64,000 nucleotides of DNA from Amycolatopsis jejuensis. GTDB lineage: Bacteria; Actinomycetota; Actinomycetes; Mycobacteriales; Pseudonocardiaceae. The stretch is taken from assembly GCF_000717335.1 (NCBI RefSeq), contig NZ_JNYZ01000019.1, positions 170,894 through 234,893 on the forward strand. The letters are read 5' to 3'. Below the pieces are notes generated by a model. That model made no database searches, was not told the origin of the DNA, and saw only the letters and a program-made list of their open reading frames with translations. The translations under genes were made by a program, and so were the position numbers. This document shows positions 12,275 to 41,038 of the stretch, piece by piece (position 1 is the first letter of the stretch; each line of letters opens with the position of its first letter).

Positions 12275-13435
12275 CTACCGGCTCCCGCGCACGCGCTGCC
12301 CGGCACGCAGAATGGCAGTCTTGGCCAGGATTTCGTCGTGCTCGGCATCGGGGTCGGAGCTCCAGGTAATGGCGCTGCCGGTGCCGTAGACAGCCGAGCC
12401 GTCGTGAGTGTCGATCACAGCCGTGCGGATCGCGACGGCAAACCGCATCGAGACCGGCTGCGACGGTGGTGCGACCCAGCCGATCGCGCCGCAGTAAACA
12501 CCGCGTGGGGTGTCCTCGAGCTCGGTGATCAGTGCCATCGTGGAGACCTTCGGTGCACCGGTGACCGAGCCGCACGGAAACAACGCGGTGAACAGTGCGG
12601 TCAGCCCGGTGCCAGGGCGCAGCGTCGCGGTGACGTCAGAAGTGAGCTGGAGAACGGTGCCGAAGCGCTCGACCGTCAGCAGCGACGGCACCCGGACGGT
12701 CCCGGCGATCGCGAGGCGGGCAATGTCGTTGCGGATCAGATCGACGATCATGATGTTCTCGGCACGTTCCTTGGCATCGGAACGCAACGCGTGTGCACGA
12801 ACCCGGTCCTCGGCGGCGTCAGCGCCCCGCCTGCTGGTGCCCTTCATCGGCCGGAGCAGCACCCGGTCCGCCCGGCGTTCGAAGAACAGTTCGGGGCTGG
12901 CACTGGCGATGACGTACCGGCCCAGCTCCAGGTACGCGTTACCGGCGCCGTGCTGAGCCAGGGCGAGATCACGGTAGAACGCGAACAAGTCCCCCTCGAC
13001 CCGGCCGCGCATGCGCACCGTCAGGTTCGTCTGGTACGTGTCCCCCGCCGCGATGCGGGCCCGCACCGCCTGCACCCGGGACCGGTAGCCGCTCCGGTCC
13101 CATCCGGGTCGCCACCGGCTGCGGTACGTCCCGCACACCGCGGTTTCGAGCGGCGCGCCGGTCGACGGAGCCCCGGTAAGGGCAAACCAGGCCAAGGGCA
13201 AGCCAGCGGCGTGATGCGTAGCGAGGCTTCGGTCCAGCCCGGCGGCGGCCTCGTAGGCGACATAGCCGTAGGCCCACGATCCTCGCGCGGTGGCTTCCTC
13301 GACCGCGGCCAGGACCGGAAGGACGTCGGCGGCACGATCCGCGCGAAGGATCCGCGCCGGGACCGGGAAACACAGGGACGTTCTGGCCTGAAGGTCGTCG
13401 AATCGGGCACCGCCCCAGCGCCCGGCTCCCCTCAT
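12275..13435 (-). CDS. pabB: Aminodeoxychorismate synthase component I (PabB)
   Basis: 386 residues of the chorismate-binding family. PabB adds ammonia to chorismate on the way to p-aminobenzoate for folate. PabB rather than TrpE is indicated by RPMKGTSRRG (about residues 195-204), whose Lys is the PabB active-site nucleophile; TrpE has a different residue there. DLIRNDIARLA, FGTVLQLTSDV, LFPCGSVTGAPK and RGVYCGAIGWV also match. No glutaminase domain is fused, so a separate PabA is needed. ATG 13435 overlaps the LysR stop by 4 nt (ATGA), making it the last gene of the folate/NCS1 run; the longer frame to 13678 lies inside the LysR gene. Confidence 0.9.
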   Translation of the reverse strand: MRGAGRWGGARFDDLQARTSLCFPVPARILRADRAADVLPVLAAVEEATARGSWAYGYVAYEAAAGLDRSLATHHAAGLPLAWFALTGAPSTGAPLETAVCGTYRSRWRPGWDRSGYRSRVQAVRARIAAGDTYQTNLTVRMRGRVEGDLFAFYRDLALAQHGAGNAYLELGRYVIASASPELFFERRADRVLLRPMKGTSRRGADAAEDRVRAHALRSDAKERAENIMIVDLIRNDIARLAIAGTVRVPSLLTVERFGTVLQLTSDVTATLRPGTGLTALFTALFPCGSVTGAPKVSTMALITELEDTPRGVYCGAIGWVAPPSQPVSMRFAVAIRTAVIDTHDGSAVYGTGSAITWSSDPDAEHDEILAKTAILRAGQRVRGSR

Positions 13436-14337
13436 CCGCGATCGGCCAGGGCGGCGGCGCACGCGTCGGCCAGCGCCTGCGCCCGGCCGGTCGGGCGGAC
13501 CTTGGTCAACCGCGTCAGGACGATCGGCAGCGAGGACAGCTCGTCCAGCAACGGGACGGCGACGACCGATCGTCCGCCATAGGTGGTGTCCACCGAAGGC
13601 CGCTGGTTGAGCACGGCATAGCCGAGCCCCTCGGCGACCATGCCCCGCACCGTCTCGTAGCTGGAGCTGCGGAAGCACACCTTCGGCTCGACGCCAGCGG
13701 AATGCAGCAGCCCTTCGAAGTATTCCGCGCTGCGGGGAATGTCCAGGATGATCATCGGCTCGTCCTCGAGCTCGGCCAGGTGGATGCCCGGCGACGTCGA
13801 CAGCGGATGGCCGGCCGGCACGATGACATACGGCGGCGCGGCAGCGATCCGCCGGCGCTTCAGGTCCTCGCCGAGCCCGAGGTCGTACATCAGGGCCACC
13901 TCGATCTTGCCTTCCTTCAGCTCCGCCAGAAGCTCGTCGGTGTCGAGCTCACGGGCCTGGATGTGCAGCTGCGGGTAACGATCGGCGCAGCTGCGCAGGA
14001 TCTGCGGCATCAGGAACGGCGCGAGCGTGACGAAGCAACCGAACCTGATGTCGCCGCTGACCGCATCCGCGATTCCGCGGGCCACCTCACCGAGTTCGGT
14101 GGCGTGCGCGAGCAAATCCTGCGCCGCCACGCACAGCCGCTCCCCGGCATCGGTGAGGCACAACCCGCGAGCGTGCCGGCGAATGAAGAGCTGGACGCCG
14201 AGCGCACGTTCGAGCGTGGCCACCGCTGACGACACCGCGGACTGGGCGATCCTCAGTTCGGCGGCAGCAGCGGTCATACTGCCGCTGGACGCCGCGACGA
14301 CGAAATAGCGAAGCTGCGCCAAGGTGAAATCGGCCAT
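13432..14337 (-). CDS. LysR family transcriptional regulator (paralogue A)
   Basis: 301 residues. The winged helix begins TLAQLRYFVVAASSGSMTAA with QSAVSSAVATLERALGVQLF, followed by a LysR effector-binding domain. It is clearly related to the LysR at 33517-34428: both have LxQLRYF, SMTAA, QSAVS, RRHARGL or RHHARGL, LxLxxxGxEP and FAVLNQRP or YAVLNQRP. Each lies next to an NCS1 permease gene. It sits 12 nt after the NCS1 stop and overlaps pabB by 4 nt, so it appears to be within the operon rather than divergent from it. It probably senses the transported compound. Confidence 0.9.
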   Translation of the reverse strand: MADFTLAQLRYFVVAASSGSMTAAAAELRIAQSAVSSAVATLERALGVQLFIRRHARGLCLTDAGERLCVAAQDLLAHATELGEVARGIADAVSGDIRFGCFVTLAPFLMPQILRSCADRYPQLHIQARELDTDELLAELKEGKIEVALMYDLGLGEDLKRRRIAAAPPYVIVPAGHPLSTSPGIHLAELEDEPMIILDIPRSAEYFEGLLHSAGVEPKVCFRSSSYETVRGMVAEGLGYAVLNQRPSVDTTYGGRSVVAVPLLDELSSLPIVLTRLTKVRPTGRAQALADACAAALADRG

Positions 14338-14349
14338 TCCGAGCCACCC

Positions 14350-15789
14350 TCACCGCCGGCGCCCGCCGGAACGCGGTGCCTCGGCGGTTTCCGCGAGAAC
14401 CGCGCTGCCCGCGACCGACGTCTCGGCGACGCGTCCGTACCTGCGCATGAGCACCAGGTATAGCGGCGAGGTGATCACGAGACCGACAATCCACGAGAGG
14501 TCGATCCCGCCGAGAGCCGCGGCGGCCGGGCCGGTGTACAGGGTGGTGCTGAGGAACGGGATCTGCACGCCGATCCCGGCGACGTAGGAGACGATCGCCG
14601 GGCGGTTGAACCGGCCGTACCGGCCACCGTCCCGCTGGAACATCGCGGCGATGTCGTATTCGCCGTGCCTGATCACGTAGTAGTCGATCAAGTTGATCGC
14701 GGTCCACGGGGTCAGCACGCAGAGGAGGATGAGCAGGAAATTGGTGTAGAAGGTGAGGAAATCTCCCTGGCCGGCGATCGCCATCACCGCGGCTGCCGCG
14801 AAGACCACCACTGCGGCGACCGTTCTGGCCGACGCGCGCGGCGTCCACTTCTCGAAGAGCGTCTGACCGATGGTGATGATGGAAAGCGACCCGCAGTACA
14901 CATACATCGCCGACTGCGAAACCAGTGCGACGCTCAGGACGACGATGACGATGCCGCTGACCCCTCGCGTGAGCGTGGCCAGGCCGGTGACCGTATCGGT
15001 TGCGGTGAGCGCCGACCCGATCAAGGCGCCGAGTGCCATCGGCAGGATCGCGCCCAGAACCGCGCCCCAGTAGGTCGCCCAGAAGGCCGAGCGGACTCCG
15101 GTGTCTTTGGGCAGGTAGCGCGTGTAGTCGGAGACGAACGGGGCACAGGCGATCATCCACAGGCTGCCCAGCGAGAGGGCACCCATGACGCCGACGACGG
15201 TGACGGTGCCCCCGGTCCACGTCGTACCGGACACGCCGTTCACGCCGAGCGCCCAGACGAAGGCGAGCACGAGCGCCAGTCCGGCGACCACGCTCATCAG
15301 CCCGGCGAGCCGGTGGATCAGGGTGTACCCGACGATGGCCGCCAGTGTGGAGACCGCGCCGATGAAGAGAATCGCCGGGGTGGTGCCGATCGACGTCAGC
15401 GCCGCGATCGACTGCCCGCCGAGGACCAGGTTCGAAGCGAAGAACCCGACATACATGAAGACGACGAGCACGATCACCAGCAGGCTGCCATAGGACCCGA
15501 ACTGGGCCCGGGTCTGCAGCATCTGGGGAACGCCGGTCTGCGGCCCCTGTGCCGCGTGCAACGCCATCACGATGCCGCCCACGAGGCAACCGGCGAACAA
15601 GGCCAGCACCGCGACCCACCACGGCAGCCCGTACAACGAGGTGGACACGAACCCGGTGGCGGCTGCCGCAAGCGTCAGCCCGGTGCCGAACCAGATCGTG
15701 AACATCTGGCGTGCCTTGCCGTGCCGTTCGCCGAGCGGAATGTGCTCGACGGTCCGCGTTTCGATGGCCGGGCCCGATTCCGTCTTCAC
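14350..15789 (-). CDS. NCS1 family permease (cytosine/allantoin/hydantoin type)
   Basis: 479 residues with about 12 helices. NCS1 markers are visible: LHAAQGPQTGVPQMLQTRAQ, PFVSDYTRYLP and PWTAINLIDYYVIRHGEYD. The family imports nucleobases, allantoin, hydantoins, pyridoxine and related N-heterocycles with H+ or Na+. GTG 15789 overlaps the MTHFR stop (GTGA) and has AGGGAG upstream. Placement inside a folate one-carbon operon suggests that it imports the methylated nitrogen compound processed there. It is paralogous to the permease at 30422-31831. Confidence 0.9.
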   Translation of the reverse strand: MKTESGPAIETRTVEHIPLGERHGKARQMFTIWFGTGLTLAAAATGFVSTSLYGLPWWVAVLALFAGCLVGGIVMALHAAQGPQTGVPQMLQTRAQFGSYGSLLVIVLVVFMYVGFFASNLVLGGQSIAALTSIGTTPAILFIGAVSTLAAIVGYTLIHRLAGLMSVVAGLALVLAFVWALGVNGVSGTTWTGGTVTVVGVMGALSLGSLWMIACAPFVSDYTRYLPKDTGVRSAFWATYWGAVLGAILPMALGALIGSALTATDTVTGLATLTRGVSGIVIVVLSVALVSQSAMYVYCGSLSIITIGQTLFEKWTPRASARTVAAVVVFAAAAVMAIAGQGDFLTFYTNFLLILLCVLTPWTAINLIDYYVIRHGEYDIAAMFQRDGGRYGRFNRPAIVSYVAGIGVQIPFLSTTLYTGPAAAALGGIDLSWIVGLVITSPLYLVLMRRYGRVAETSVAGSAVLAETAEAPRSGGRRR

Positions 15790-16670
15790 TGTGCTGCTCC
15801 CTGGTCGGTGTCTCCGTCGAGATAGCGGTGAAACCACTCCACGGTCGGCGCGACATTGTTGAAAGAGAAGACATGCAGGCCCTCGATGCCGGCCCGGCGG
15901 TCGGCGCCGAGCACCTCGTCCACGATCCCGGCCGGTTCGAACGTGGCCGACTTCAGCAGTTTCTTCACCGAGGACCGGTTGCTCTTGAGGAACCGCAGCG
16001 AGCTGCCGACGCCCAGCCTGCTCGAAATCGCCATCAGCTTCAATCGATCGACGTGCCCTGGTACGCCGAGGCGCAGCGGGAGGGTGAGCCCCCGGTCGCG
16101 CTCGCGCAGCGCCCACTCCACGATCGCCGCCCCGGAGAAGCACATCTGCGTCGAGACATATCCGTGCAGCCCACGGGATTCCACGAAGTCCTGCTTCGCG
16201 TGGAGCGCGGCTGCGACCTGCTCCCCGGAAATCGCCGAATGGCCCTCCGGATATCCGGCGAAACCGAAACACCGGACGACGTCGCTCACCTCTGCATAAC
16301 CGGTCGCGAGGTCGAGCGCCGCCGCATAAGGACCGGCTTCCTTGGCGTCGCCGCCGATGCAGAAGACCTCCTCGATGCCCATGGCGTCACAGCGGCGCAC
16401 GATGTCCGCCAGCTGCGCGCGGCTGCCGATCTGCCGCGCCGCGAGGTGCGGGATCGCGTCGTGCCCGAGCTTGCGCAGCGCGGCGGTGACGTCGATGGTC
16501 GCGTCGATGCCGTGGGCGGGCGAGCACGTCACCGACAACCGGCTTCCGGCGGGGATCTCGGGGAAACGGCGACGAAGCGATGGCAGCGGGATCAGTTCCA
16601 TCCGGGACCGTTCGCGCAGGTGCCGGACCGAAGCAGCGGCCGGTCGTACCCGATCGGGATCGATGCTCAT
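15786..16670 (-). CDS. Methylenetetrahydrofolate reductase family protein
   Basis: 294 residues of the FAD-dependent MetF barrel family, which interconverts 5-methyl-THF and 5,10-methylene-THF. Visible features are LSVTCSPAHGIDATIDVTAA near residue 45, the HLAARQI segment (folate/FAD site), EVFCIGGDAKEAGPY, FGFAGYPEGHSAI and a conserved C-terminal FNNVAPTVEW. Adjacent to a GcvT/DmdA-like demethylase, it would run in the oxidative direction, converting methyl-THF to methylene-THF, as with the MetF partner of LigM-type O-demethylases. ATG 16670 follows AAGGAGG. It overlaps the NCS1 start. Confidence 0.88.
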   Translation of the reverse strand: MSIDPDRVRPAAASVRHLRERSRMELIPLPSLRRRFPEIPAGSRLSVTCSPAHGIDATIDVTAALRKLGHDAIPHLAARQIGSRAQLADIVRRCDAMGIEEVFCIGGDAKEAGPYAAALDLATGYAEVSDVVRCFGFAGYPEGHSAISGEQVAAALHAKQDFVESRGLHGYVSTQMCFSGAAIVEWALRERDRGLTLPLRLGVPGHVDRLKLMAISSRLGVGSSLRFLKSNRSSVKKLLKSATFEPAGIVDEVLGADRRAGIEGLHVFSFNNVAPTVEWFHRYLDGDTDQGAAQ

Positions 16671-16696
16671 GATGCTCCTCCTTCCGCTCGGACCGG

Positions 16697-17812
16697 TCAG
16701 ACGAAGGGGATGGCGTGGATGCTCGCCTTGTGCTCGCCGGCCGGGCTCCTGACCGTGAGCTCGGCGTCGTCGGCCACGGCCGAATCGACCAGGGCGACGG
16801 CGATGTTGCGGTCGAGGGCGTAGGACCACACCGCCCACCGGACGACCCCGACCTCCTTCCCGGTCGCGGAATCCTCGACCGGCCAGAACCATTCGAACAG
16901 CGGCCACTCGGCGGTGTCGGAGACCAGCCCGACCGTCTTGCGCTTCGGACCGCTTTCCCGCACCTTCCGCAGTGCGTCGCGGCCGATGAAGTCGTTCTTG
17001 TCCAGGTCGACGAGGCCGCCGAGACCGGCTTCGAAGAGGTCCATCCCGGAGTTGGTGGCGTACTGGGTGTCGAGGATTCCCTGCTCGACCGCGCGGTTGA
17101 GGTTCGGGCCGGTCACCAGGATGTCGTGTGCCCGGCCCGCCTCGCGAACGGCGTCCCAGGCTTCCGCGGCGCGGGCGGAGCCGAGCGGGTACACCTCGTA
17201 GCCCGACTCCTTGCTCCAGCCGGTGTTGGAAATGACGACGTCGACACCGGCCAGTTCGGTCACCACACAGCGAAAACGGCGAAGAGCATCCAGGTCGGCC
17301 GCGACGAGCGGGGCGAGCACCGCACGCGCCTTCGGACCCTGTACCTGGAACGGCGCGACATCCGCCTCGGCGACCTGCACGTCGTAACCACCGGCGAGGG
17401 CGAGCCCGTAGGCCCACAGGCTGACGTCCACATCGGAATGGGAGAACCAGATCACGTCCTCGTAGGGCCGGAGGATGATGATCTCGGACATGATCCGGCC
17501 GTGCTGATCGCAGAGCGGGGTGTACTTGCATCCGCCCACCGGCAGCCCGGACAGGTCCCGCGGGGCGAGGTAGTCCGCGAATTTCAGGGCGTCGGGCCCG
17601 CGGAATTCGGCCTGCCGTTCCGCGCCGACATCCCACAGCGTCACTCCGTGCACGATCGCGTCGTACTCGGCACGCGGGTCGTTGTCGTAGACGAACGGCA
17701 TGTACGTGTGGTTGTAGACGCCCCATTCGAGGGCGCCTTCGCGCAGCGTCCGGTCGAAATACGGGGAGCGGCGCGTGGTGTACATCAGGTTCTGGCGAAG
17801 GGGCTTGGACAC
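16697..17812 (-). CDS. GcvT/DmdA-like tetrahydrofolate-dependent demethylase
   Basis: 371 residues of the aminomethyltransferase (T-protein) fold: folate-binding domain about residues 15-260, C-terminal barrel about 280-370. The N-terminal pattern RRSPYFDRTLREG, WGVYNHTYMP, LWDVGAERQAEFRG and APRDLSGLPVGGCKY resembles DmdA (DMSP demethylase) more than glycine-cleavage GcvT. The position of the catalytic Asp of GcvT (GxxxDD) reads GRIMSE here, so the chemistry is unlikely to be glycine cleavage; no gcvH or gcvP is nearby. It probably moves a methyl from N, O or S to THF. Start GTG 17812 has AGGGAGA upstream. Confidence 0.82.
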   Translation of the reverse strand: MSKPLRQNLMYTTRRSPYFDRTLREGALEWGVYNHTYMPFVYDNDPRAEYDAIVHGVTLWDVGAERQAEFRGPDALKFADYLAPRDLSGLPVGGCKYTPLCDQHGRIMSEIIILRPYEDVIWFSHSDVDVSLWAYGLALAGGYDVQVAEADVAPFQVQGPKARAVLAPLVAADLDALRRFRCVVTELAGVDVVISNTGWSKESGYEVYPLGSARAAEAWDAVREAGRAHDILVTGPNLNRAVEQGILDTQYATNSGMDLFEAGLGGLVDLDKNDFIGRDALRKVRESGPKRKTVGLVSDTAEWPLFEWFWPVEDSATGKEVGVVRWAVWSYALDRNIAVALVDSAVADDAELTVRSPAGEHKASIHAIPFV

Positions 17813-17841
17813 GATGGGTCTCCCTGGTGTCGGTCGGGCTT

Positions 17842-18897
17842 TCAGTGCCGTAGTGGCGCGGTGTCGAAGTACTCGGTGAGCCGGGTGATCCGCCCGTCGG
17901 CGGTCTCGGCGATCATGGTGAACTCGAAGTCCAGGACGCTGCCGTCGGCGACGACCGTGGCCGTCATCCGGCCCTCGGCGCAGGCGCGGGCACCCGTACC
18001 GAGAACGGAATAGAGCTCGATCCGCACGTCGGCCAGCTCGTCCACGGCAGCCTGGTTGGTGGCGAGAATGTCGTCCGGTCCGATCAGCGGCCGTTCGTGC
18101 AGCGGATCGGTGAAGACCCCCTCGTCGGCGAAGAGACGGGCGATCGCCGCGTTGTCCTGCTTGATCCAGGCATCGCAAAGGCGGCGGATGGCTGCCGGTG
18201 CGTCCATGGCCGGTTCCTCCGTGTTCCGGGCGCGCAGGGGTGAATTGAGCACGGTGATGCGCGCGGGGTCACCGGTCAGGGAGCCGTCGGAGATCGGTCC
18301 GGAGCCCAATGCCCGCGCGAACTCGAGGTGCTCCCGAGTCGTGGCCGGGTGGAAACCGGTGTCGTGCAGCAAGACGACGCTCGACTCGCTCACCCCGCAC
18401 CATCCGAGCACCCCGGTCCGCAGGAGCGAGTCGAGCCCGTCGGCGTAGCCGCGCCGGGCGAAGCTCCCGGCGGAACCACCGGTGGTCAGAAGGATCAGGT
18501 AGGGCCGCGGTGGCAGCAAGCTGCCTTCGGGGTCGTTGGCGAACTCGTAGGCCCACCCGTTGCTCCAGACCCGGTCGAACCAGCCTTTGAGCATTGCGGG
18601 AAATCCGAGCCACCACAGCGGGCTCATGATCACGATGGCATCGGCCCGTTCGATCCGCGCCTGCTCGTCGAGAATGCGGCGGGACAGCGCACCACCCTCG
18701 AACTGGACGTAGTCCCCGGCGTGGAACACCGGGTCGAACTTCTCCCGGTAAAGGTCCGCGACCTCGTAGGTCCGCCCCGTTTCGGCGAGCCCGGCCGTGT
18801 ACTCGGCGAGCAGCTGCGCACCGAAGGAATCGTCGCGCGGGTGGCAGAACACGACGAGGACGTGCTCGGCGGTGGTCTCCGCATCCGGTTCAGACAT
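17842..18897 (-). CDS. Flavodoxin-fold NAD(P)H dehydrogenase fused to a SnoaL-like domain
   Basis: 351 residues. Residues about 12-215 match NAD(P)H:quinone oxidoreductase/flavodoxin-2 proteins (HVLVVFCHPRDDSFGAQLL, IVIMSPLWWLGFPAMLKGWF, LLTTGGSAGSF). Residues about 231-351 form a SnoaL/NTF2-like domain (IRRLCDAWIKQDNAAIARLF, FTDPLHERPLIG). The junction encodes a Met with a GGAGG box seven bases before it (ATG 18207), so a free 121-residue SnoaL protein may also be made. The start overlaps the purU stop by 8 nt. It probably delivers electrons or reduces an intermediate; the substrate is unknown. Confidence 0.85.
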   Translation of the reverse strand: MSEPDAETTAEHVLVVFCHPRDDSFGAQLLAEYTAGLAETGRTYEVADLYREKFDPVFHAGDYVQFEGGALSRRILDEQARIERADAIVIMSPLWWLGFPAMLKGWFDRVWSNGWAYEFANDPEGSLLPPRPYLILLTTGGSAGSFARRGYADGLDSLLRTGVLGWCGVSESSVVLLHDTGFHPATTREHLEFARALGSGPISDGSLTGDPARITVLNSPLRARNTEEPAMDAPAAIRRLCDAWIKQDNAAIARLFADEGVFTDPLHERPLIGPDDILATNQAAVDELADVRIELYSVLGTGARACAEGRMTATVVADGSVLDFEFTMIAETADGRITRLTEYFDTAPLRH

Positions 18898-19774
18898 GGA
18901 TGATGGTCCGGTTGCGATGCACGTGGACGCGGTCCTCCACGTGCAGTTCGACCGCTCTGGCCAGCACGGTCCGTTCGATGTTCTTGCCCCGCTTGGCCAT
19001 CGTGGCCGCGTCGTCGGTGTGGCCGACGTGCTCGACGTCCTGTGCGATGATGGGGCCCGCGTCGAGTTCCGGCGTCGCGTAGTGCGCGGTGGCGCCGATG
19101 ATCTTCACCCCGCGTTCGTAAGCCCGCCGATACGGCTGTGCTCCCACGAAGGCGGGAAGCAGTGAATGGTGGATGTTGATGACCGGCACGCGGGCCCGGT
19201 CGAGAAAATCGTCCGTGAGGATTTGCATGTAGCGCGCCAGCACGACGAAATCCACCGCCGATTCCCGGAGCAGATCCAGGATCTGCGCCTCGGGCCGTTT
19301 CCTGTTCTCCGGGTCGGCGGGAACATAGTGGTACGGCACCCCGAAATGCTCCGCGGCCGAACGCAGCTTGTCGTGGTTCGAGATGACGAGGGGAATGTCG
19401 ACGGCCAGATCGTCGTTGCGGGCGCGCCAGAGCAGATCGAGGACGCAGTGGTCACTGGTCGAGCAGAGCACCGCCATTCTCTTGCGCCGAGCGGCGGGCC
19501 AGACCTGGTATTCCAGGTCGAGCGTCTCGGCGAGCTGAGCCAGCCGGGCATGGACCGCGTCGGCTTTTCCCGGCCGGACGTCGACCACGAGGCGGAGGAA
19601 GAACGCGCCGCCCTCGGGTTCGGTGCTGAACTGGCTGGACTCGCGGATGTTGCAGCCGAGCTCGCTCAGCGCGGTCGAAAGCGCGGACACCAGACCGGGC
19701 CGGTCGGCGCACGACGCCCGGATCCGCAGTGTCCCGGCCCCCGTCTGCGCAGGGCCCGCGAAGTGATTGTTCAT
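18890..19774 (-). CDS. purU: Formyltetrahydrofolate deformylase PurU
   Basis: Hydrolyses 10-formyl-THF to formate and THF. 294 residues: N-terminal ACT domain (about 16-90, CADRPGLVSALSTALSELG) and formyl transferase domain with RKRMAVLCSTSDHCVLDLLW, the catalytic NIHHSLLPAF and HYATPELDAGPIIAQ. I start it at ATG 19774 (MNNHFAG); the longer frame reaches into the divergent PucR gene. There is no clear ribosome site, so the transcript may be leaderless. It is the first gene of the minus-strand folate run. With FolD and MTHFR nearby it would complete release of a one-carbon unit as formate. Confidence 0.92.
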   Translation of the reverse strand: MNNHFAGPAQTGAGTLRIRASCADRPGLVSALSTALSELGCNIRESSQFSTEPEGGAFFLRLVVDVRPGKADAVHARLAQLAETLDLEYQVWPAARRKRMAVLCSTSDHCVLDLLWRARNDDLAVDIPLVISNHDKLRSAAEHFGVPYHYVPADPENRKRPEAQILDLLRESAVDFVVLARYMQILTDDFLDRARVPVINIHHSLLPAFVGAQPYRRAYERGVKIIGATAHYATPELDAGPIIAQDVEHVGHTDDAATMAKRGKNIERTVLARAVELHVEDRVHVHRNRTIIHV

Positions 19775-19909
19775 GATGTGTTTCGCCACCGGAGGGTCGA
19801 AGGTGGGCGGGCGGTGGAAGCCACGCCGTAATGCGGGACAACTATCCGGGACCGCCTGCCGGGGCCGCATTGTGCACGCGACCAACGATCGGGCCGTCGC
19901 ACCGGGCGG

Positions 19910-21100
19910 ATGAACGACCAGCCGGTACGGACCGCTCCGGAGTGGACGAATCGCCGCGGGCGGATGAAGATGCAGTCCGTGACCCAAGCGGACGACATGC
20001 TCGCGATGAGCCGGGCGCTCACCGACGGGACCGGGCTCGCGGGCGTGGTCACCATCCTGCGGCGGGTCACGTCGGCCCCCGCCGCATTCGTGGACCTGCG
20101 GGGAAGCCTGCTCGCGTCGGCACCCACGCGCGCCCAGTGGCCGTTGCCGGAACTGCGGTCCTGGCGGCCCGGAGTCCGCCACGTCGGTGACCCGGCGCTG
20201 GCGGTGGAGCCGGTGGCGCTGGACGGCGACGTGGTCGCGCTGCTGGTGGTCCGCCCCTGCGCCGGGCAGGAGGCCGTGTTCCGGGTCGCCGCCGAACTGG
20301 CTTCTCTCGAGCTCGCCCGGCTGCAGGCCCTCCTCACCGGCCGGCGCGAGATGGCCGGTCAGATCCTCGAGGACGTCTTCACCGGACGCAGCCGGGGCCG
20401 CGAGGCCAGGGAGCGGCTGGCCTCGCTCGGGATCGAATCCGGGGCACCGGCAGGACATTCGGTGCTCGTCGGCCGGACGGCCCGGTCCGGCGCGCAGCTG
20501 CGGACCCGGCCGTGGAACCTGCACTCGCTGCTTGCCGGGCGTGGCGATCCCTACGTCCGGGCCACCGTCGGGAACGATCTCGTGCTGGTGGTACCGGGCT
20601 CGGACTCACTCGTCACGGTCGCCCGCATGCTGCTGCAGCACCTGCGAATGCTGGACAGCGCGGCCTCGGTCGGGATCGGCCCGGCCGCATCCGACCCGGT
20701 GTCCCTCTCGATGAGCTATCACCAGGCACGGGATGCGGCGGCACCGGACGGAGTGCACCACGCCCGGCCGCTCAACCTGGGGTACCTGCTGCTCGGCTCG
20801 GCCGACACGCTGCCGATGCGGGAGTTCGTGGAGCGCGCGCTGGAACCGCTGACCGCCCACGACACGCGCACCGGCAGCGAACTGCTCCGTTCACTGGTCG
20901 TCTACCTCGACTGCGACTGCTCGATTTCCCAGGCCGCCGACCGGCTGTTCGTCCATCGGAACACCCTTCGCCACCGGCTGAACATCATCAGCGAGCTGAC
21001 CGGATGGTCACCGGACACCTTCGACGGGCGCATGCACTTCTGGATCGCCACCCGGCCTGCCGCTAGGGTGGGTTTCGAGAGCGAGGGGACGATCGAATGA
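19910..21100 (+). CDS. PucR/CdaR family transcriptional regulator
   Basis: 396 residues with a GGDEF-like central region and a C-terminal PucR-type helix-turn-helix (SISQAADRLFVHRNTLRHRL, then SELTGW). Such regulators often control purine, allantoin or amino acid catabolism. It is divergent from the purU-pabB run across 135 bp and is the best candidate regulator of that operon. The start is uncertain: ATG 19910 or ATG 19964 (MKMQSVTQ), each behind gggcgg. It overlaps the VOC gene by 4 nt. Confidence 0.85.
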   Translation: MNDQPVRTAPEWTNRRGRMKMQSVTQADDMLAMSRALTDGTGLAGVVTILRRVTSAPAAFVDLRGSLLASAPTRAQWPLPELRSWRPGVRHVGDPALAVEPVALDGDVVALLVVRPCAGQEAVFRVAAELASLELARLQALLTGRREMAGQILEDVFTGRSRGREARERLASLGIESGAPAGHSVLVGRTARSGAQLRTRPWNLHSLLAGRGDPYVRATVGNDLVLVVPGSDSLVTVARMLLQHLRMLDSAASVGIGPAASDPVSLSMSYHQARDAAAPDGVHHARPLNLGYLLLGSADTLPMREFVERALEPLTAHDTRTGSELLRSLVVYLDCDCSISQAADRLFVHRNTLRHRLNIISELTGWSPDTFDGRMHFWIATRPAARVGFESEGTIE

Positions 21101-21843
21101 CCACCGAGCAGCCGCCCTGGTGCGTCGGCGTGCGCACGCTGCGGCTCGATACGCCGGATCCCGGTGCCGCGGAAGCCTTCTACGAAACTCTCACCTACCC
21201 GGCGGAACGTGCCGCGGTGCGCGTGCAGGTCAGCCCGCACCGCCACCCCGGCACCGCGCGATGGATCGTCGGGTTCGGTGTCACCGATCTCGCCGGTGCG
21301 GCCGGTGTATGTGCGGACCTCGGCGCGAAAGTCGTTGCCGGGCCGGACGGGTCGTACCTCGTGGCGGACCCGCAGGGAATCACCTTCGAGCTGGTCGGTG
21401 CCGAGCCCGCACCGGGCGAGCCGGCCGGGCGCGGCGACGTCGTCCTCGCCGATGTCTACACCCGCGATGTCGAAACGGCGACGGCCTTCTACTCGGCCGC
21501 GCTCCGGTTGCGGGTCGATCTCCTGCCCGACGAGCCCGTCGACTACACGATGTTGTCCGCAGGCGGGCAGCACCTCGCCGGGGTGCTCGACATGACGTCG
21601 TTTCTCGACCCGGCGACCGAGGACCACTGGATGCCGTACTTCCATTTTCCGGACATCGACGCGGGGATCGAACGGGCCACCGCGCTCGGCGCTTGGGTGG
21701 TCGTGCCGAGAACGGCCAGCCCGACCGGAGACTACGCACTGCTGCAGGACAGCTGGGGATGCCTCTTCGGGATCTGGGACGCCCAGACCCGGCACCGCAG
21801 CCCCGGAAGCCACGGCGCCGCGGCGCATCCGTCAGCCCGGTGA
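21097..21843 (+). CDS. VOC superfamily protein (glyoxalase/dioxygenase fold), two domains
   Basis: 248 residues with two vicinal-oxygen-chelate modules, about 8-110 (VRTLRLDTPDPGAAEAFYET) and 122-230 (VYTRDVETATAFYSAALRL... DSWGCLFGIWD). The second module keeps the usual FxFxVxDID-like strand (YFHFPDIDAGIERATALG). Members include glyoxalases, epimerases and extradiol-type dioxygenases; some, like this one, lack a clear full metal triad, so a binding role is also possible. It is coupled to the PucR gene and its 3' end overlaps the convergent folP end by 12 nt. Confidence 0.85.
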   Translation: MTTEQPPWCVGVRTLRLDTPDPGAAEAFYETLTYPAERAAVRVQVSPHRHPGTARWIVGFGVTDLAGAAGVCADLGAKVVAGPDGSYLVADPQGITFELVGAEPAPGEPAGRGDVVLADVYTRDVETATAFYSAALRLRVDLLPDEPVDYTMLSAGGQHLAGVLDMTSFLDPATEDHWMPYFHFPDIDAGIERATALGAWVVVPRTASPTGDYALLQDSWGCLFGIWDAQTRHRSPGSHGAAAHPSAR

Positions 21844-22686
21844 CCCGGCCGCCGACTGCCACGCGGCCCACGTACCGAGCGCGATCCTGGTCATTTCCAC
21901 ATCATGCACGCGCACTCCCCACACCTGGTGCTGCGCGGCAAGCACGCTCAAGACCGCGGTCGGCAGGTCCCGGCCGCTCGGCGCGGCACCGGCCGGGACC
22001 AGGCCGGCGAGGAAACGCTTGCGCGACGCGCCGATCAGCACCGGATGGCCGAGCTCCTGCAGCCGGTCCAAGCGGCTGAGCAGGTGCCAGTTGTGCGGCG
22101 CCCGTTTGGCGAACCCGAGGCCCGGGTCCAGCACGATCCGGCCGGGCGGGACCCCGGCCTGCACCGCCGCAGCCGCGCGCGCCGCGAGTTCCCGGCAGAC
22201 CTCCTCGACCGGGTCGGCGTAGTCCGCGTAGTTGCGCATCGTCTGCGGCGTGCCGCGCCAATGCCCGATGACGTAAGCGATCCCGGCGTCGGCGACTGCT
22301 GCTGCCATCGCGGGGTCGGCGAGACCTCCCGAAACGTCATTGACGAAGGACGCGCCAAGCTCAGCCGCCGCCTTCGCCGTTTCCGCGTGCAGCGTGTCGA
22401 TCGAGACGACAACACCTGCGGCAGCAAGGTTTTTCACGACGCCGAGCACTCGCGCCTGCTCCTCCGCCGCGGAGATCGGCCGGGCACCCGGCCGGGTCGA
22501 CTCGCCGCCGACGTCGATGATGTCGGCGCCCGCCGCGACGAGCGCCTTGCCGTGCGCAATCGCCGCCGACTCCGCAAGGTGCGCACCGCCGTCGCTGAAC
22601 GAATCAGGCGTGACGTTGACGATGCCCATGATCAACGGTCTCCGCGGGTACGTGTCCCATGTGGACATAGTGGGTGCGGGCAGCAT
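21832..22686 (-). CDS. folP: Dihydropteroate synthase FolP
   Basis: Condenses p-aminobenzoate with hydroxymethyl-dihydropterin diphosphate. 284 residues with the two DHPS signatures IMGIVNVTPDSFSDGG and DIIDVGGESTRPGA, plus FVNDVSGG, the HW segment, LDPGLGFAKR and IGASRKRFL. The start ATG 22686 overlaps the folD stop (TGATG). The usual folE, folB and folK partners are not here; instead it is paired with folD, so it serves this local folate island or is a second copy. Whether a housekeeping folP exists elsewhere in the genome cannot be seen here. Confidence 0.92.
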   Translation of the reverse strand: MLPAPTMSTWDTYPRRPLIMGIVNVTPDSFSDGGAHLAESAAIAHGKALVAAGADIIDVGGESTRPGARPISAAEEQARVLGVVKNLAAAGVVVSIDTLHAETAKAAAELGASFVNDVSGGLADPAMAAAVADAGIAYVIGHWRGTPQTMRNYADYADPVEEVCRELAARAAAAVQAGVPPGRIVLDPGLGFAKRAPHNWHLLSRLDRLQELGHPVLIGASRKRFLAGLVPAGAAPSGRDLPTAVLSVLAAQHQVWGVRVHDVEMTRIALGTWAAWQSAAGSPG

Positions 22687-23534
22687 CAACCCAGGCCGGC
22701 CGCGGCCTGCAGGGTGTTCGCCAGGAGCATGGCGATGGTCATCGGCCCCACCCCGCCCGGCACCGGCGTGATCCACGACGCACGGGCCGCGACCTCGTCG
22801 AACTGCACGTCCCCGGCGAGCCCGTCCGGAGTGCGATGGATGCCGACGTCCACGACCACCGCGCCCTCGCGGACGTGCTTCGCCGTGATCAGCCCCTCCC
22901 GTCCGGCCGCGGCGACCACGATGTCCGCCTCGCGCGTGACTGCGGCGAGGTCGGCAGTGCGGGAGTGCGCGACCGTCACCGTCGCGTTGCGGTGCAGGAG
23001 CATCTGCGCGAGCGGAGCTCCCACGAGCTGCGACCGCCCGACCACCGCGACGTGCTTTCCCGGCAGGTCGATGCCCGCTGCGTCGAGGAGTGCGATCACC
23101 CCCGACGGGGTGCAGGGCCGCAGGCCGGGGGCGGCGCGGCTGAGCAGCCCGGCGCTCGTCGTAGTCAGGCCGTCGACATCCTTCCCCGCCGGAATGCGCT
23201 CGATCAGCGACGCGCTGTCCTTGCCGGCAGGCAAGGGAAGCTGGAGGAGAATGCCCGACACGCGCGGGTCGGCCGCGAGGTCGTCGAGTACCGCCGCGAT
23301 CTCCCGTTCCGGCGCCGGACCCGGCAGATGGTGGTGGAAATCGGCGATCCCTGCCGCCGCCGCCATCTTGCGCTTGCTGGCGACGTAAACGTGGCTCGCC
23401 GGGTCGTCGCCGACGAGCACCGTCGCCAGCCCGGGCGCGGTTCCGGTCCGGCCGGTGAAGGCGGCGGCCTTCTCCCGGGTCTGCGCACGGACCTCGGCAG
23501 CCAGCCGCTTCCCGTCCAGGATCTGGGCGTTCAT
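22686..23534 (-). CDS. folD: Methylenetetrahydrofolate dehydrogenase/cyclohydrolase FolD
   Basis: Bifunctional NADP-dependent oxidation of 5,10-methylene-THF to methenyl-THF and hydrolysis to 10-formyl-THF. 282 residues, the normal length. Motifs: SHVYVASKRKMAA with the catalytic Lys, GILLQLPLP, GKDVDGLT, CTPSGVIALL, the Rossmann HVAVVGRSQLVGAPLA and the end PVPGGVGPMTIAML. The start ATG 23534 has GGGAGG about ten bases upstream. With MTHFR and PurU in the neighbouring run it completes methyl-THF oxidation to formate. It is followed by folP with a 1-nt overlap. Confidence 0.93.
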   Translation of the reverse strand: MNAQILDGKRLAAEVRAQTREKAAAFTGRTGTAPGLATVLVGDDPASHVYVASKRKMAAAAGIADFHHHLPGPAPEREIAAVLDDLAADPRVSGILLQLPLPAGKDSASLIERIPAGKDVDGLTTTSAGLLSRAAPGLRPCTPSGVIALLDAAGIDLPGKHVAVVGRSQLVGAPLAQMLLHRNATVTVAHSRTADLAAVTREADIVVAAAGREGLITAKHVREGAVVVDVGIHRTPDGLAGDVQFDEVAARASWITPVPGGVGPMTIAMLLANTLQAAAGLG

Positions 23535-23657
23535 GCCGGAAAAGCCTCCCTTGGCTCGACATCTACCAAGGAACAGCATGACAATCCCACCGGGATCCGC
23601 ATAACATCGATCCGCGGCGCAGCCCATCGATTTCCGCGATACTGCTTCGGTCCCGCG

Positions 23658-24608
23658 TCACAAATCGAGGACCAGCAACGGTCCCTTGCTGCGCGACACA
23701 CACGGCAGGATGACGTCGCCGCGCTGTTGTTCCTCGTCGGTCAGGACGTCGTCTCGGTGGTCCGGTTCGCCCGACAGCACGCGGACCTCGCAGGTGCCGC
23801 AGATACCCGCCCGGCACGAGTTGTCCAGTTCCACTCCGGCCGCTTCGATCGCGTCCAGCAACGGCTCGTACTCGCCGACGGTGAGGCGGATTCCAGTGCG
23901 CTGCAACAACACCTCGAAGCTACCAGCGACCGGAGGCACCTCCGCAGCGAAGCGCTCCCGGTGCAGTGCACCCGCTGGCCACGCGGCACACGCGCGCTCC
24001 ACGGCGGACAGCATCGGGCCTGGCCCGCAGGAGTAGACCACCGTGCCGTCCGAGGGGACTGCGAGCAGCCCGTCGAGATCGGGCAGCCCGGCCTCGTCCT
24101 GCGGGACGATCGTGAGTTCGCCGCCCGGAACGGCCGACAGCTCGTCGGCGAAAGCCATCGACGTCCGGGTCCGCCCGCCGTAGACGAGGTGCCACGGGCG
24201 GCCCAGCTCGGCTGCCCGGCGCACCATCGGCAGGATCGGCGTGATCCCGATGCCCCCGGCGACGAACAGGTACCGCTCGGCGTCGACGAGCGGAAACCGG
24301 TTGCGCGGGCCGCGAACCCGCAGCCGGTCCCCCGCGCGGACCTCGTCGTGGATCCGGGCCGACCCGCCTTGCCCGTCCGGCTCGCGCAGCACCGCGATCC
24401 GCCAAGTGCCCGAAGACTGCAGGCCGCACAAGGAGTACTGCCGCAGCAAGCCCGGGCCGAGGTCGACGTCGAGGTGCGCACCCGGCTCCCACCGAGGCAG
24501 GTCCGCAGCGATGAGCGTCAACGCCACGACGTCGTCGGCGCACCTTTCGACTGCCGCCACCACGACCGTGCGCCAGTCGTCCGGGGCGGGCACCGGCTCA
24601 CCGGTCAC
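23658..24608 (-). CDS. VanB-type flavin/[2Fe-2S] oxidoreductase (oxygenase reductase)
   Basis: 316 residues in the class IA reductase order: flavin domain (about 10-100, with RQYSLCG), NAD domain (about 108-215, LFVAGGIGITPILPM, YSCGPGPML) and a C-terminal plant-type [2Fe-2S] ferredoxin domain with CRAGICGTC and a fourth Cys in LPCVSRSKG. Such proteins pass electrons from NADH to an oxygenase. The upstream gene, which overlaps by 11 nt, encodes a ferritin-like diiron protein, the likely partner, although VanB-type reductases usually serve Rieske oxygenases. Confidence 0.88.
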   Translation of the reverse strand: MTGEPVPAPDDWRTVVVAAVERCADDVVALTLIAADLPRWEPGAHLDVDLGPGLLRQYSLCGLQSSGTWRIAVLREPDGQGGSARIHDEVRAGDRLRVRGPRNRFPLVDAERYLFVAGGIGITPILPMVRRAAELGRPWHLVYGGRTRTSMAFADELSAVPGGELTIVPQDEAGLPDLDGLLAVPSDGTVVYSCGPGPMLSAVERACAAWPAGALHRERFAAEVPPVAGSFEVLLQRTGIRLTVGEYEPLLDAIEAAGVELDNSCRAGICGTCEVRVLSGEPDHRDDVLTDEEQQRGDVILPCVSRSKGPLLVLDL

Positions 24609-25290
24609 TGCCGGCCTTGACCGACTCGGGGGTGAACGTCCGCCAGGCGATGTCCCGCATCCCGCGCATGGCGTACAGGATTTCCTCGCGGTCCTCGTCG
24701 GTCTCGACGTAGGTCGCCATCATCTGCAGTCCGAGGCCGACGTGGAACTTCTCGTCCTTCTCGATCTGCCGGTAGATCCGCGTGACCTCGGTCAGCTGGT
24801 GCCGCTCCGCACCGCGGAAGGTCGGTTCGAAGCTGCCCGACGCCGAGGTCTCGGAGAGGTTCCACGCGGCGACCGCGGAAAGCGGGTGCCGGTCGAGGCA
24901 TTCCCACAGGAACCGGCTCCACGGCTCGGCTTCCGCGGGCACGGTCGTGGGCACCTTCCCGCCCAGCGACTCGATCGCCTTGCCGACCATGTCGTAGTGC
25001 TCGGCCTCCTGGAACGACTGCTTGGCCAGCAACGTGAGGTGCCGCCGCTCGAACTGCATGCCGTACCGGCTGATCTCCTCGTTGAGCAGGTACACGTAGT
25101 CGATCTCGCGCCAGCACCGCGGGACCAGCCAGGCGGCCAGCCGCGCCGGGTCCGGGTCCTCGTCGTAGGAGGCGAAGAACGCCTCGGTCGCCTCGGCGGT
25201 GGCGACCTGCACCGACTCCAGCAGCTCGTCCAGCTCGGCCTTGATCGGCTCCAGCCCGTTCCCGCCCCTGACGTTGCGCACGTCGGCCAT
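24598..25290 (-). CDS. Ferritin-like diiron protein, probable oxygenase component
   Basis: 230 residues, predicted all-helical. Two ExxH motifs are visible (E95-x2-H98 in SFQEAEHYD; E180-x2-H183 in KDEKFHVG) with further Glu residues in the preceding helices (REIDYVYLLNEE; NLSETSASGSFE), the ligand pattern of a carboxylate-bridged diiron four-helix bundle. It is coupled to a VanB-type reductase, suggesting an O2-activating oxygenase or N-oxygenase. ATG 25290 with GGAGG six bases upstream is preferred to the in-frame ATGs at 25323 and 25362, which lie in the operator. The substrate is unknown. Confidence 0.78.
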   Translation of the reverse strand: MADVRNVRGGNGLEPIKAELDELLESVQVATAEATEAFFASYDEDPDPARLAAWLVPRCWREIDYVYLLNEEISRYGMQFERRHLTLLAKQSFQEAEHYDMVGKAIESLGGKVPTTVPAEAEPWSRFLWECLDRHPLSAVAAWNLSETSASGSFEPTFRGAERHQLTEVTRIYRQIEKDEKFHVGLGLQMMATYVETDEDREEILYAMRGMRDIAWRTFTPESVKAGSDR

Positions 25291-25445: not shown

Positions 25446-26162
25446 GTGAGCGGAGCGGAGGCGTTGCGGGCCCCGGACAGCCTGGCCGACCAGATCGCGC
25501 AGATCCTCGAAGACGAGATTCTCGAAGGGCGTTACCCCGACGGCACCCACCTGCAGCAGGAGGAAATCTGCGGGCGCTTCGGGGTCAGCCGCACCCCGGC
25601 CCGCGAGGCGCTGCGGAAGCTTCAGGCGCACAACCTCGTCGAGCTGGTACCCAATCGCGGGGCCCGGGTCCGGATGCCGACGTTGCGCGAGCTCAACGAC
25701 GTCTACCAGCTGCGTGCCGAGCTCGAAGGATTCGCCGCCGATCTCGCCGCCCGCTCCCGCGCGCCCGAGATGCTCGCCGCGCTCGAGAAGGCACACGAGG
25801 CGCTGCGGCAGGTCGTGCCGCTCGCCGAGGGAACCCTCGCCGATCCTGACGACACCGAGACCACCGAACGGCTGCGCCGGTTCAACGACATGTTCCACCG
25901 GGTCATCCACGACGCGGGCGGAAACCAGCGGCTCGGCAGCATGATCCAGGAACTGCACCGGTACTTCCCGAAGGACACCGTCCGGCTGGCGATCCGGTCC
26001 CCGGAAACCCTGCGCTCGCTGTACATCGACGAGCATGCGGCGATTCTCGGCGAGATCACCCGCGGACGGCCCGGCGCGGCAAGGGATTCGATGCGCGAGC
26101 ACATCCGCGGTTCGCAGGCGATGCTGGTGGACTATCTCCGCGAACGCGGCTTCCCCGACTGA
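25446..26162 (+). CDS. GntR family regulator (FadR/FCD subfamily)
   Basis: 238 residues: N-terminal winged helix (LADQIAQILEDEILEGRYPD, FGVSRTPAREALRKL) and an all-helical FCD ligand domain with metal-type residues (FHRVIHDAGGN; DEHAAILGEI; EHIRGSQ). Regulators of this class normally repress catabolic operons until a carboxylic-acid ligand binds. A perfect 32-bp inverted repeat overlaps the divergent promoter of the diiron/reductase genes. GTG 25446 follows an AAAGGGGCGA purine stretch. The ALDH gene downstream on the same strand could also be controlled by it. Confidence 0.9.
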   Translation: MSGAEALRAPDSLADQIAQILEDEILEGRYPDGTHLQQEEICGRFGVSRTPAREALRKLQAHNLVELVPNRGARVRMPTLRELNDVYQLRAELEGFAADLAARSRAPEMLAALEKAHEALRQVVPLAEGTLADPDDTETTERLRRFNDMFHRVIHDAGGNQRLGSMIQELHRYFPKDTVRLAIRSPETLRSLYIDEHAAILGEITRGRPGAARDSMREHIRGSQAMLVDYLRERGFPD

Positions 26163-27726: not shown

Positions 27727-28328
27727 TCCCCCAGTGCACATCCGGTCTCGGCGCTGAGGTACCCGAGCACCAGCGCCCGTACCGAGGCCGCCGAGAGGCT
27801 GGTGTTGCGCCCGGCGATATGCAGGCCGTATGCGTCTTCCAGGGCCACCGCGTTGGTCGCGACCGCAGTGACCGGCGAACGCATCCGGAACGCGCCGACG
27901 TCGCGCCCGTGCGCCAGCACCGCCGAATACAGCGAGACCTCGCGGTCCCACAACGCGGTCATCAGGACGGCGTGCGTCCGGCTGCGGGCCGCGTGGACGT
28001 GCATTTCGTACAGCACCCTGCTGAGCGGGTCTTCCCCGTCCCCGGGAAGACCCGCTTCGGCCAGCCGCACGAGACGGCGAACCGGGTCCGCCTCCTCCTC
28101 GGCCGCCTTCGCGCGCGCCCAGTAGAACCGGTCGACGGCGTCCCGGTGCAGTTCGTGCAGCAGATCGTCGAGATCCGGGTAGTAGTAGCTGACGGAGCCC
28201 GCCGACAGCCCGGCCTCCTCCGCGACGTCCCGGATGCGGAGCCCGGCCAGTCCGCGGGTGAGAATCGCGCGCCCGGCCGCCGCGACGAGCTCGTCGCGGC
28301 GCTTCGCCTGGTCCTTGGGTCGTGCCAT
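27717..28328 (-). CDS. TetR family transcriptional regulator
   Basis: 203 residues. The N-terminal HTH reads ELVAAAGRAILTRGLAGLRI, then AGLSAGSVSYYYPDLDDLL, with a helical ligand domain resembling BetI-type repressors. ATG 28328 (MARPKDQAKRRDEL) is the natural start; the longer frame runs antisense through the amine oxidase gene. It is divergent from the copper amine oxidase gene across 132 bp and probably represses it. It overlaps the convergent ALDH 3' end. Confidence 0.9.
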   Translation of the reverse strand: MARPKDQAKRRDELVAAAGRAILTRGLAGLRIRDVAEEAGLSAGSVSYYYPDLDDLLHELHRDAVDRFYWARAKAAEEEADPVRRLVRLAEAGLPGDGEDPLSRVLYEMHVHAARSRTHAVLMTALWDREVSLYSAVLAHGRDVGAFRMRSPVTAVATNAVALEDAYGLHIAGRNTSLSAASVRALVLGYLSAETGCALGDQA

Positions 28329-28422
28329 GTTCTGGATTATTGATGATCTGCATCGAAAAACCGAGCCCACCCCCCGGTAACCAAGACGACACAAGGTCTT
28401 GCCCTGCGGGACCGCGCCAGTC

Positions 28423-28448
28423 ATTCTTTCCGCTACATCGCAAAGAAT
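28423..28448. promoter_or_regulatory. Inverted repeat before the copper amine oxidase gene
   Basis: ATTCTTT-N12-AAAGAAT, with exact 7-bp arms, ends 12 nt before the start codon and two bases before the GGAGG. It may be an operator for the divergent TetR or an mRNA stem. Confidence 0.35.
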
Positions 28449-28460
28449 ACGGAGGACCGG

Positions 28461-41035: not shown

Positions 41036-41038
41036 AGC

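Follow-up and report, generated by a model that had tools for sequence, protein, structure and literature searches.

Several described systems come close to the locus analyzed here, a stretch of Amycolatopsis jejuensis DNA in which genes for a GcvT-superfamily protein (P0001) and for folate-linked one-carbon metabolism are followed by predicted histamine (hin) genes. The LigM/DesA-MetF O-demethylation clusters likewise combine a tetrahydrofolate (THF)-dependent demethylase of the GcvT superfamily with MTHFR, PurU and FolD, but the GcvT-like protein of our locus lies nearer to DmdA within the family and is linked to hin genes. Chloromethane (cmu) and nicotine/dimethylglycine one-carbon clusters also use folD-purU to dispose of folate-bound one-carbon units, while differing from the locus in demethylase chemistry. 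Another is the Hin pathway of Pseudomonas putida U and P. aeruginosa. The parts of the reports available to us describe for it the FAD monooxygenase HinF (EC 1.14.13.5), the enamine deaminase HinL and the amidase HinG (EC 3.5.1.8) (PMC6467879), together with a second amidase (HinH), the aspartase HinI, the aldehyde dehydrogenase HinD, the permease HinA and the LysR protein HinK (PMC6467879, PMC8231116), a regulator responding to imidazoleacetate (PMC8231116). In P. aeruginosa, hinF, L, H and G are consecutive (PA5393-PA5390; PMC6467879, PMC8231116). Our region resembles the pathway in all of these components, and the putative Brevibacterium version in having a copper amine oxidase, which there is proposed to take the place of the aminotransferase (PMC8231116, PMC6467879). 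In contrast, two demethylation modules are attached to the genes studied here, while none is mentioned for known Hin systems in the same parts of these reports.

The window, that is the whole stretch analyzed, spans 64,000 nucleotides (C19:170894-234893 of the 10.1-Mb genome), and domains were called with Pfam and curated NCBIfam models and their cut-offs, with bits given per model. Within it, positions 12.3-42.5 kb on balance appear to serve the catabolism of N-methylated imidazoles from histamine metabolism, and demethylation there would feed a Hin pathway. Methylimidazoleacetate and methylhistamine are main products of mammalian histamine breakdown, and no bacterial demethylase for methylated imidazoles was found among the titles listed in a search of the open-access literature, a search that left subscription journals mostly outside. 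A first-pass annotation had described 12275..25290 as a folate one-carbon island with a demethylate-to-formate route and its own folate supply, leaving the substrate open. Its inference was partly right and can, with moderate confidence, be sharpened to methylated histamine metabolites; what the present analysis chiefly adds is the link to genes of histamine catabolism.

Linkage of the demethylation modules to hin genes

Co-location of the demethylation modules with hin genes is conserved, and the LysR regulator (LysR1) and NCS1-family permease (NCS1a) encoded beside P0001 are related to hin counterparts. In Psychromicrobium silvestre a single 15.4-kb stretch (contig positions 1436664-1452108) holds both the GcvT module and the core of the hin set, comprising FolD, LysR, aldehyde dehydrogenase, HinF, HinL, HinH, HinG, glyoxalase, PucR, SnoaL, GcvT, NCS1, flavodoxin, MTHFR-like and PurU genes. 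All three genomes in which a GcvT orthologue was found have HinG at 69% or above. For comparison we used 27 hin loci, namely those of 26 of the 33 HinG-bearing family genomes plus Psychromicrobium, with the window and six genomes left out. Relatives of NCS1a (52-60%) were present in three of these 27 (L056, L101 and L105), none of which has a GcvT match. Among 96 scored candidates from its own genome, LysR1 had the hin-cluster LysR2 as its best paralogue (258.7 bits), and it grouped with hin-cluster LysRs in a tree (88/86).

The second module, consisting of a diiron oxygenase-type protein (P0003) and a reductase, adjoins hin genes in the window and in two further loci (L024 and L028), together representing three genera. 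This module was detected in 7 of 297 family genomes, with one broken copy, and six of the seven are among the 33 of 294 genomes with HinG (hypergeometric p 8e-6, ignoring kinship). Counted by genus the association has a p of 3e-4, with genus g18 counted though its two genes sit in different genomes.

A more distant arrangement was seen on a Lichenihabitans plasmid, where a 37.6% GcvT relative is accompanied by MTHFR, purU and folD. A 65% HinF lies about 8 kb away, a 48% DUF1028 protein is close to the GcvT relative, and hutH and a urocanate hydratase follow further on.

The predicted hin region

Downstream of the stretch covered by the first-pass annotation, and unlisted there, positions 26269..42535 carry the following genes, of which a single one, that of the FAD monooxygenase, is on the minus strand:

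26269..27726, plus: aldehyde dehydrogenase, predicted HinD role (PF00171, 530 bits; relatives in 8 of 27 hin loci)
28461..30395, plus: copper amine oxidase, histamine/methylhistamine oxidase role suggested by context (PF01179, 517 bits; NF008559, 858.8 bits, cut-off 651)
30422..31831, plus: second NCS1 permease (PF02133, 172.5 bits)
31828..33474, plus: amidohydrolase family 3 (PF07969, 270 bits; 77% relative in hin locus L105)
33517..34428, plus: LysR2, predicted HinK role (closest solved structures 3fzv and 6m5f at 197 bits, 'probable transcriptional regulator')
34469..35704, minus: FAD monooxygenase, predicted HinF role, imidazoleacetate 4-monooxygenase (TIGR04046, 356 bits, under the cut-off of 498)
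35871..36407, plus: Rid-family enamine deaminase, predicted HinL role (PF01042)
36419..37081, plus: DUF1028 protein, HinH role predicted from its place in the F-L-H-G order (PF06267, 187 bits)
37081..38208, plus: M20 amidohydrolase, predicted HinG role, N-formylaspartate amidase (TIGR01891, 194 bits, cut-off 153.75)
38205..39620, plus: aspartate ammonia-lyase, predicted HinI role (NF008909, 687.9 bits, cut-off 510; TIGR00839, 617.7 bits, under 681.2)
39689..41035, plus: MFS metabolite:H+ symporter (TIGR00883, 362 bits, under the cut-off of 443; found in hin clusters)
41039..42535, plus: APC amino-acid permease, predicted HinA role (PF13520; 87-88% in L088 and L091)

Roles were assigned by family, description and gene order. 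Each catabolic Hin role has a counterpart in this region, including the FAD monooxygenase, Rid deaminase, DUF1028/amidase and M20 amidase along with an aspartase, and the F-L-H-G order is that of PA5393-PA5390; the region is thus a predicted counterpart of the Hin histamine-to-fumarate pathway. Around HinG, F, L, H and G occurred together in all 27 compared loci, accompanied by aspartase in 19, aldehyde dehydrogenase in eight and copper amine oxidase in two (L088 and L091), in both of which it adjoins the hin genes. The 77% amidohydrolase relative in L105 hints at a conjugated imidazole substrate for the genes at 30422-33474.

The GcvT-like protein and the proposed methyl-THF-to-formate module

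All gene families named by the first-pass annotation within 12275..25290 were confirmed, all but the diiron protein by Pfam or NCBIfam matches, and the same stretch holds four genes it had not listed, encoding a LysR, a Flavodoxin_2-SnoaL protein, a PucR-type regulator and a two-domain glyoxalase. The genes up to the start of the hin region are:

12275..13435, minus: PabB-like protein (aminodeoxychorismate synthase I type), extra copy (PF00425 Chorismate_bind, 265 bits)
13432..14337, minus: LysR1, HinK-like, putative regulator of the GcvT module (PF00126/PF03466)
14350..15789, minus: NCS1-family permease NCS1a (PF02133, 158.7 bits)
15786..16670, minus: MTHFR-like protein, proposed 5-methyl-THF oxidase (PF02219, 24.7 bits, barely above the cut-off of 24)
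16697..17812, minus: DmdA-like GcvT-superfamily protein P0001, proposed THF-dependent demethylase (GCV_T, 110 bits, and GCV_T_C)
17842..18897, minus: Flavodoxin_2 of the NAD(P)H oxidoreductase type, in frame with a SnoaL-like domain (PF02525, 137 bits; PF12680, 61.5 bits)
18890..19774, minus: PurU, 10-formyl-THF hydrolase (TIGR00655, 340.8 bits, cut-off 285.95)
19910..21100, plus: PucR-type regulator (PF13556, 76 bits, and PF17853; kept in L013 and L014)
21097..21843, plus: two-domain glyoxalase-like protein (PF18029 in two stretches; kept in L013 and L014)
21832..22668, minus: FolP, extra dihydropteroate synthase (TIGR01496, 290.4 bits, cut-off 162.6)
22686..23534, minus: FolD (NF010783, 344.7 bits, cut-off 333)
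23658..24608, minus: FAD/2Fe-2S reductase (PaaE-like among others), putative diiron partner (PF00111 Fer2 and PF00175 NAD_binding_1)
24598..25290, minus: diiron oxygenase-type protein P0003, proposed oxidative demethylase, of no named family
25446..26162, plus: GntR-FCD regulator, divergent partner of the diiron module (PF00392/PF07729; kept in L024-L028)

The PurU, Flavodoxin-SnoaL, GcvT-like, MTHFR-like, NCS1, LysR and PabB genes are tightly packed on the minus strand, which also carries the diiron, reductase, FolD and FolP run; the PucR and glyoxalase genes lie between both runs on the plus strand.

P0001 belongs to a DmdA-like clade of the GcvT superfamily and is not an ordinary GcvT. The hidden Markov models proposed for it by the first-pass annotation gave DmdA (NF009133) as the best curated match at 239.6 bits, short of the equivalog cut-off of 410, while the GcvT models NF001567 (129 bits, cut-off 300) and TIGR00528 (113.6 bits, cut-off 235.85) and those for LigM (NF047885, 48.1 bits, cut-off 580) and DesA (NF047633, 49.7 bits, cut-off 800) scored lower. 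Its nearest solved fold is also DmdA, with dimethylglycine oxidase and sarcosine oxidase as further structural neighbours. From the best 120 of 442 relatives listed, 24 were read, all of which were aligned with the window's protein and 12 placed in a tree, along with the distant loci L015 (30%; also used in one comparison) and L016 (25%). P0001 grouped with DmdA, its clade being sister to the DmdA-containing group, and not with the strongest GCV_T match of the genome (321.6 bits, a 374-residue frame on C41), which served as the GcvT reference on the assumption, made without a curated test, that it is GcvT. The DmdA-like signatures VYN[HR] and G-[WY]-S-K-x-x-G-[YF]-E-[VI]-Y are also present in the DmdA rows and absent from this reference. 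A placement inside ordinary GcvT, which the earlier annotation had named as grounds for abandoning its proposal, is therefore rejected on the three counts of model score, tree position and motif content, and an identity as LigM-type aryl O-demethylase is rejected by score. Unlike DmdA, P0001 has no acyl-CoA or methylmercaptopropionate genes seen adjoining it.

Since P0001 is DmdA-like and not an ordinary GcvT, the proposed route from methyl-THF to formate is well supported; FolD and PurU both pass their curated models. The survey of co-occurrence suggested earlier found the module genes together in two other genomes. A scan of the genome collection with P0001 returned four loci, namely L015, L016 and the orthologues of Sciscionella marina (82%), a member of the same GTDB family as the window genome (taken to be Pseudonocardiaceae), and Psychromicrobium silvestre (76%). 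In S. marina the FolD, glyoxalase, PucR, PurU, Flavodoxin-SnoaL, GcvT, MTHFR, NCS1 and LysR genes stand in the same order as in the window, and given this order the grouping exceeds chance. The NCS1a relatives within the module share 76% (Sciscionella) and 68% (Psychromicrobium). What stands of the first-pass island is thus a conserved module of a GcvT-superfamily protein other than GcvT with MTHFR-like, FolD and PurU proteins.

The GcvT orthologue is rare. At E 1e-100 it was found in 2 of 294 family genomes, the query genome included, and in 1 of 396 sampled phylum genomes, this being the query genome itself; at E 1e-80, 1 of 295 genomes of the family of Psychromicrobium was positive, namely Psychromicrobium itself. 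Of the 11 GcvT relatives at the head of the list (P0005-P0015, 76-84% identity), eight have an MTHFR-like match (50-69%) that was taken to lie on the same contig, an assumption made from the equal size of the longest contigs.

The SnoaL-like domain is fused to flavodoxin in the window, whereas Psychromicrobium encodes it on its own and the metagenomic P0010 carries it as part of the GcvT-like protein; it probably works with the demethylase. The PucR and two-domain glyoxalase genes are kept in all three module-bearing genomes read.

The diiron/reductase module

The diiron/reductase pair reported by the first-pass annotation is present, but it constitutes a module separate from the folate island and occurs without GcvT genes in other genomes. 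P0003 had no Pfam match over cut-off (ribonucleotide-reductase, 16.2 of 33.6 bits) and no NCBIfam match. Its sequence contains the motif E-x32-E-x2-H twice (E62/E95/H98 and E147/E180/H183), a predicted complete four-Glu two-His ligand set of a ferritin-like diiron oxidase. From the best 120 of 219 relatives listed, 29 were read and 27 aligned with the window's protein, leaving out P0214 (a near-duplicate) and P0231 (with an odd middle); among the 28 aligned sequences, the window's included, E62 was conserved in 27, E95 in 26 and H98, E147, E180 and H183 in all. The structural model is confidently predicted to be all-helical (predicted local distance difference test score, pLDDT, 93.4), and its matches are diiron oxidases of the CADD/UndA/AetD type. 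P0003 may resemble CADD, UndA, AetD, HrmI and aldehyde-deformylating-type oxidases in fold, and its predicted four-Glu two-His ligands are as in ferritin-like oxidases, but it belongs to no sequence family and differs in its dedicated FAD/2Fe-2S reductase and in a link to formaldehyde disposal seen in one genus.

The reductase, for which every NCBIfam match was under cut-off, adjoins the diiron gene in every locus of L024-L029. In three genomes of one genus (L025, L026 and L027) the module adjoins a zinc alcohol dehydrogenase, identified in L025 and L027 as S-(hydroxymethyl)mycothiol dehydrogenase (700.6 and 656 bits, cut-off 512.9), with that of L026 99% identical to that of L025. Formaldehyde disposal beside the diiron module argues for an oxidative demethylase. 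No plasmid-borne diiron homologue was found at E 1e-5, and an order-wide search yielded 2 of 397 genomes, both already among the known ones.

Two hin loci carry pieces of the reductase. In L089 (5832-6113) a C-terminal piece of 94 residues (73%), probably a remnant, directly precedes the hin LysR with no diiron match, and in L107 (16807-17153) two short pieces (49% and 63%) in different frames lie on the far side of the hin cluster. The window's reductase has a weak DmmA-like match (30.4 bits, under the cut-off of 33), which raised the idea of a heme-dependent demethylase for dimethylamine; this was dropped because the heme-subunit family (DUF3445) was not found among the 30 open reading frame entries scanned.

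Proposed pathway and alternative explanations

From the genes we infer the substrate (for example methylimidazoleacetate or methylhistamine), the direction of methyl flow and the diiron reaction, as well as any part that SnoaL, flavodoxin, glyoxalase, FolP and PabB would play in the pathway. A methylated imidazole would be taken up by the NCS1, APC or MFS permeases, and N-methylhistamine, if it is the substrate, would be converted to N-methylimidazoleacetate by the copper amine oxidase and aldehyde dehydrogenase. The DmdA-like protein would then pass the N-methyl group of the protonated imidazolium on to THF, with imidazoleacetate and 5-methyl-THF as products; a protonated N-methylimidazole bearing an acetate resembles dimethylsulfoniopropionate (DMSP) in pairing a methylated cation with a carboxylate and would therefore suit a DmdA-like pocket. 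The MTHFR-like protein would oxidize 5-methyl-THF to methylene-THF, FolD would carry this to 10-formyl-THF and PurU would release formate and THF, while HinF-L-H-G would open the imidazoleacetate ring to aspartate and formate and HinI would yield fumarate. The diiron protein and its reductase are probably an additional, oxidative demethylase of N-methylated imidazole, whose formaldehyde would pass to FolD/PurU in the window genome and to the mycothiol-dependent formaldehyde dehydrogenase in relatives. A fuller version would be a bacterial pathway, of which we found no earlier description, for methylhistamine and tele-/pros-methylimidazoleacetate. It would employ two new demethylases unrelated to each other, one DmdA-like and THF-dependent for N-methylimidazoles and the other a diiron oxidative enzyme, perhaps one per ring-nitrogen isomer, and is offered as a speculative and rather doubtful extension. 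If true, the proposal would add an aromatic N-methyl group to the sulfonium and aryl-ether methyls removed by THF-dependent demethylation, point to a role for a diiron family lacking a Pfam entry and provide a directly testable substrate for the whole gene cluster.

Several observations weigh against a methylimidazole pathway. The linkage counts are tiny because the GcvT orthologue is known from just three genomes, which are not independent (p 0.012, 2/2 in the family). In Sciscionella the GcvT module and hin cluster are on separate contigs, each well inside its contig, and the 39.8 kb examined around the Psychromicrobium cluster gave no amine oxidase or aspartase match. A second paralogue of LysR1, outside hin on C11, scored close to LysR2 (239 vs 258.7 bits), and the LysR tree is a weak control because nearly all its members are hin-locus LysRs. 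No HinL or HinG match was found in the Lichenihabitans plasmid region, and its GcvT relative shares about 57-58% identity with proteins of Phaeobacter and Loktanella whose gene context is DMSP-like. The MTHFR-like protein scored far under the curated MTHFR model (TIGR00676, 31.8 bits vs a cut-off of 293.7), and the proposal leaves the conserved genes for SnoaL, flavodoxin and glyoxalase unexplained. The histamine role of the copper amine oxidase rests on context because its nearest solved protein is phenylethylamine oxidase, and only 2 of the 27 hin loci have such an enzyme. Finally, the diiron genome G018, whose diiron gene stands at a contig start with an internal stop, is not among the HinG genomes, and the formaldehyde dehydrogenase adjacency is confined to one genus.

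Alternatively, the GcvT module would act on another methylated compound, either cationic or carrying an N-methyl group (a sulfonium, a betaine or an N-methyl pyrimidine, purine or hydantoin), and its place near hin genes would reflect the general clustering of catabolic genes, an explanation that we regard as unlikely though the most serious competitor. NCS1 permeases usually have nucleobase- or hydantoin-like substrates and PucR regulators often control the use of purines or proline, which would fit substrates of these types; the P0001 clade is sister to a group containing a sulfonium demethylase, the Phaeobacter and Loktanella relatives have their DMSP-like context and the Sciscionella genes are apart. 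It accounts poorly, however, for the single contiguous cluster with HinFLHG in Psychromicrobium, the HinK-like regulator and the hin-linked NCS1 relatives. We consider it improbable that the diiron protein, reductase and GcvT-like protein form a single oxidative N-demethylase, modelled on dimethylglycine oxidase or the heme-dependent oxidative N-demethylase, with the GcvT part trapping formaldehyde on THF as methylene-THF. GcvT domains of dimethylglycine and sarcosine oxidases do capture formaldehyde on THF, both enzymes are structural neighbours of P0001, and the diiron and GcvT genes are close in the window, but Sciscionella (G074) has the GcvT module with no diiron match, the other six diiron genomes have no listed GcvT orthologue at E 1e-100, three of the diiron genomes have the adjacent formaldehyde dehydrogenase and the MTHFR-like gene would serve no purpose. 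That folP, pabB, folD and purU instead tune folate and formate pools, with the GcvT-like protein running toward methylation, seems very improbable indeed: the extra copies of folP and pabB would agree with such a biosynthetic island, yet neither has a match by the module in the two other genomes, and a dedicated permease and HinK-like LysR indicate catabolism. The methylimidazole pathway feeding Hin thus remains the reading we prefer.

Folate genes and related demethylase loci

The island FolP and PabB are extra copies, because the genome has another FolP on C21, after FolE in an operon-like run, and another PabB on C3 (534 bits, over the curated cut-off of 383). In all, six chorismate-binding and four pterin-binding places were counted, in each set one (on C7) without a curated-model name. 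The window's PabB-like protein is itself under the curated cut-offs (NF005698, 361 bits vs 452; TIGR00553, 322.2 vs 328.4, just under). No FolP or PabB match was found near the module in Sciscionella or Psychromicrobium (stretches L013, L014, L058, L059, L062 and L063), so the extra copies are not conserved with it; island folP and pabB look like a local addition, and the idea of the island's own folate supply is not supported as first worded.

On Phaeobacter and Loktanella plasmids (L110 and L115), DmdA-like GcvT proteins distinct from annotated DmdA occur with an Lrp regulator, OsmC, enoyl-CoA hydratase and acyl-CoA synthetase. The window genome also holds a second THF demethylation cluster (L030; C35:36000-55900, at 6198-10213), in which a LigM/DesA-like demethylase, under both cut-offs (DesA, 512 of 800 bits; LigM, 475 of 580), is accompanied by MTHFR-like, PurU and FolD proteins. 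The window's MTHFR-like protein is 33% identical to that of this cluster. The MTHFR-like and PurU proteins of Psychromicrobium are nearer to those of a LigM/DesA-like cluster (55% and 64%) than to the window's (30% and 51%), and the same functions therefore appear to have been recruited separately.

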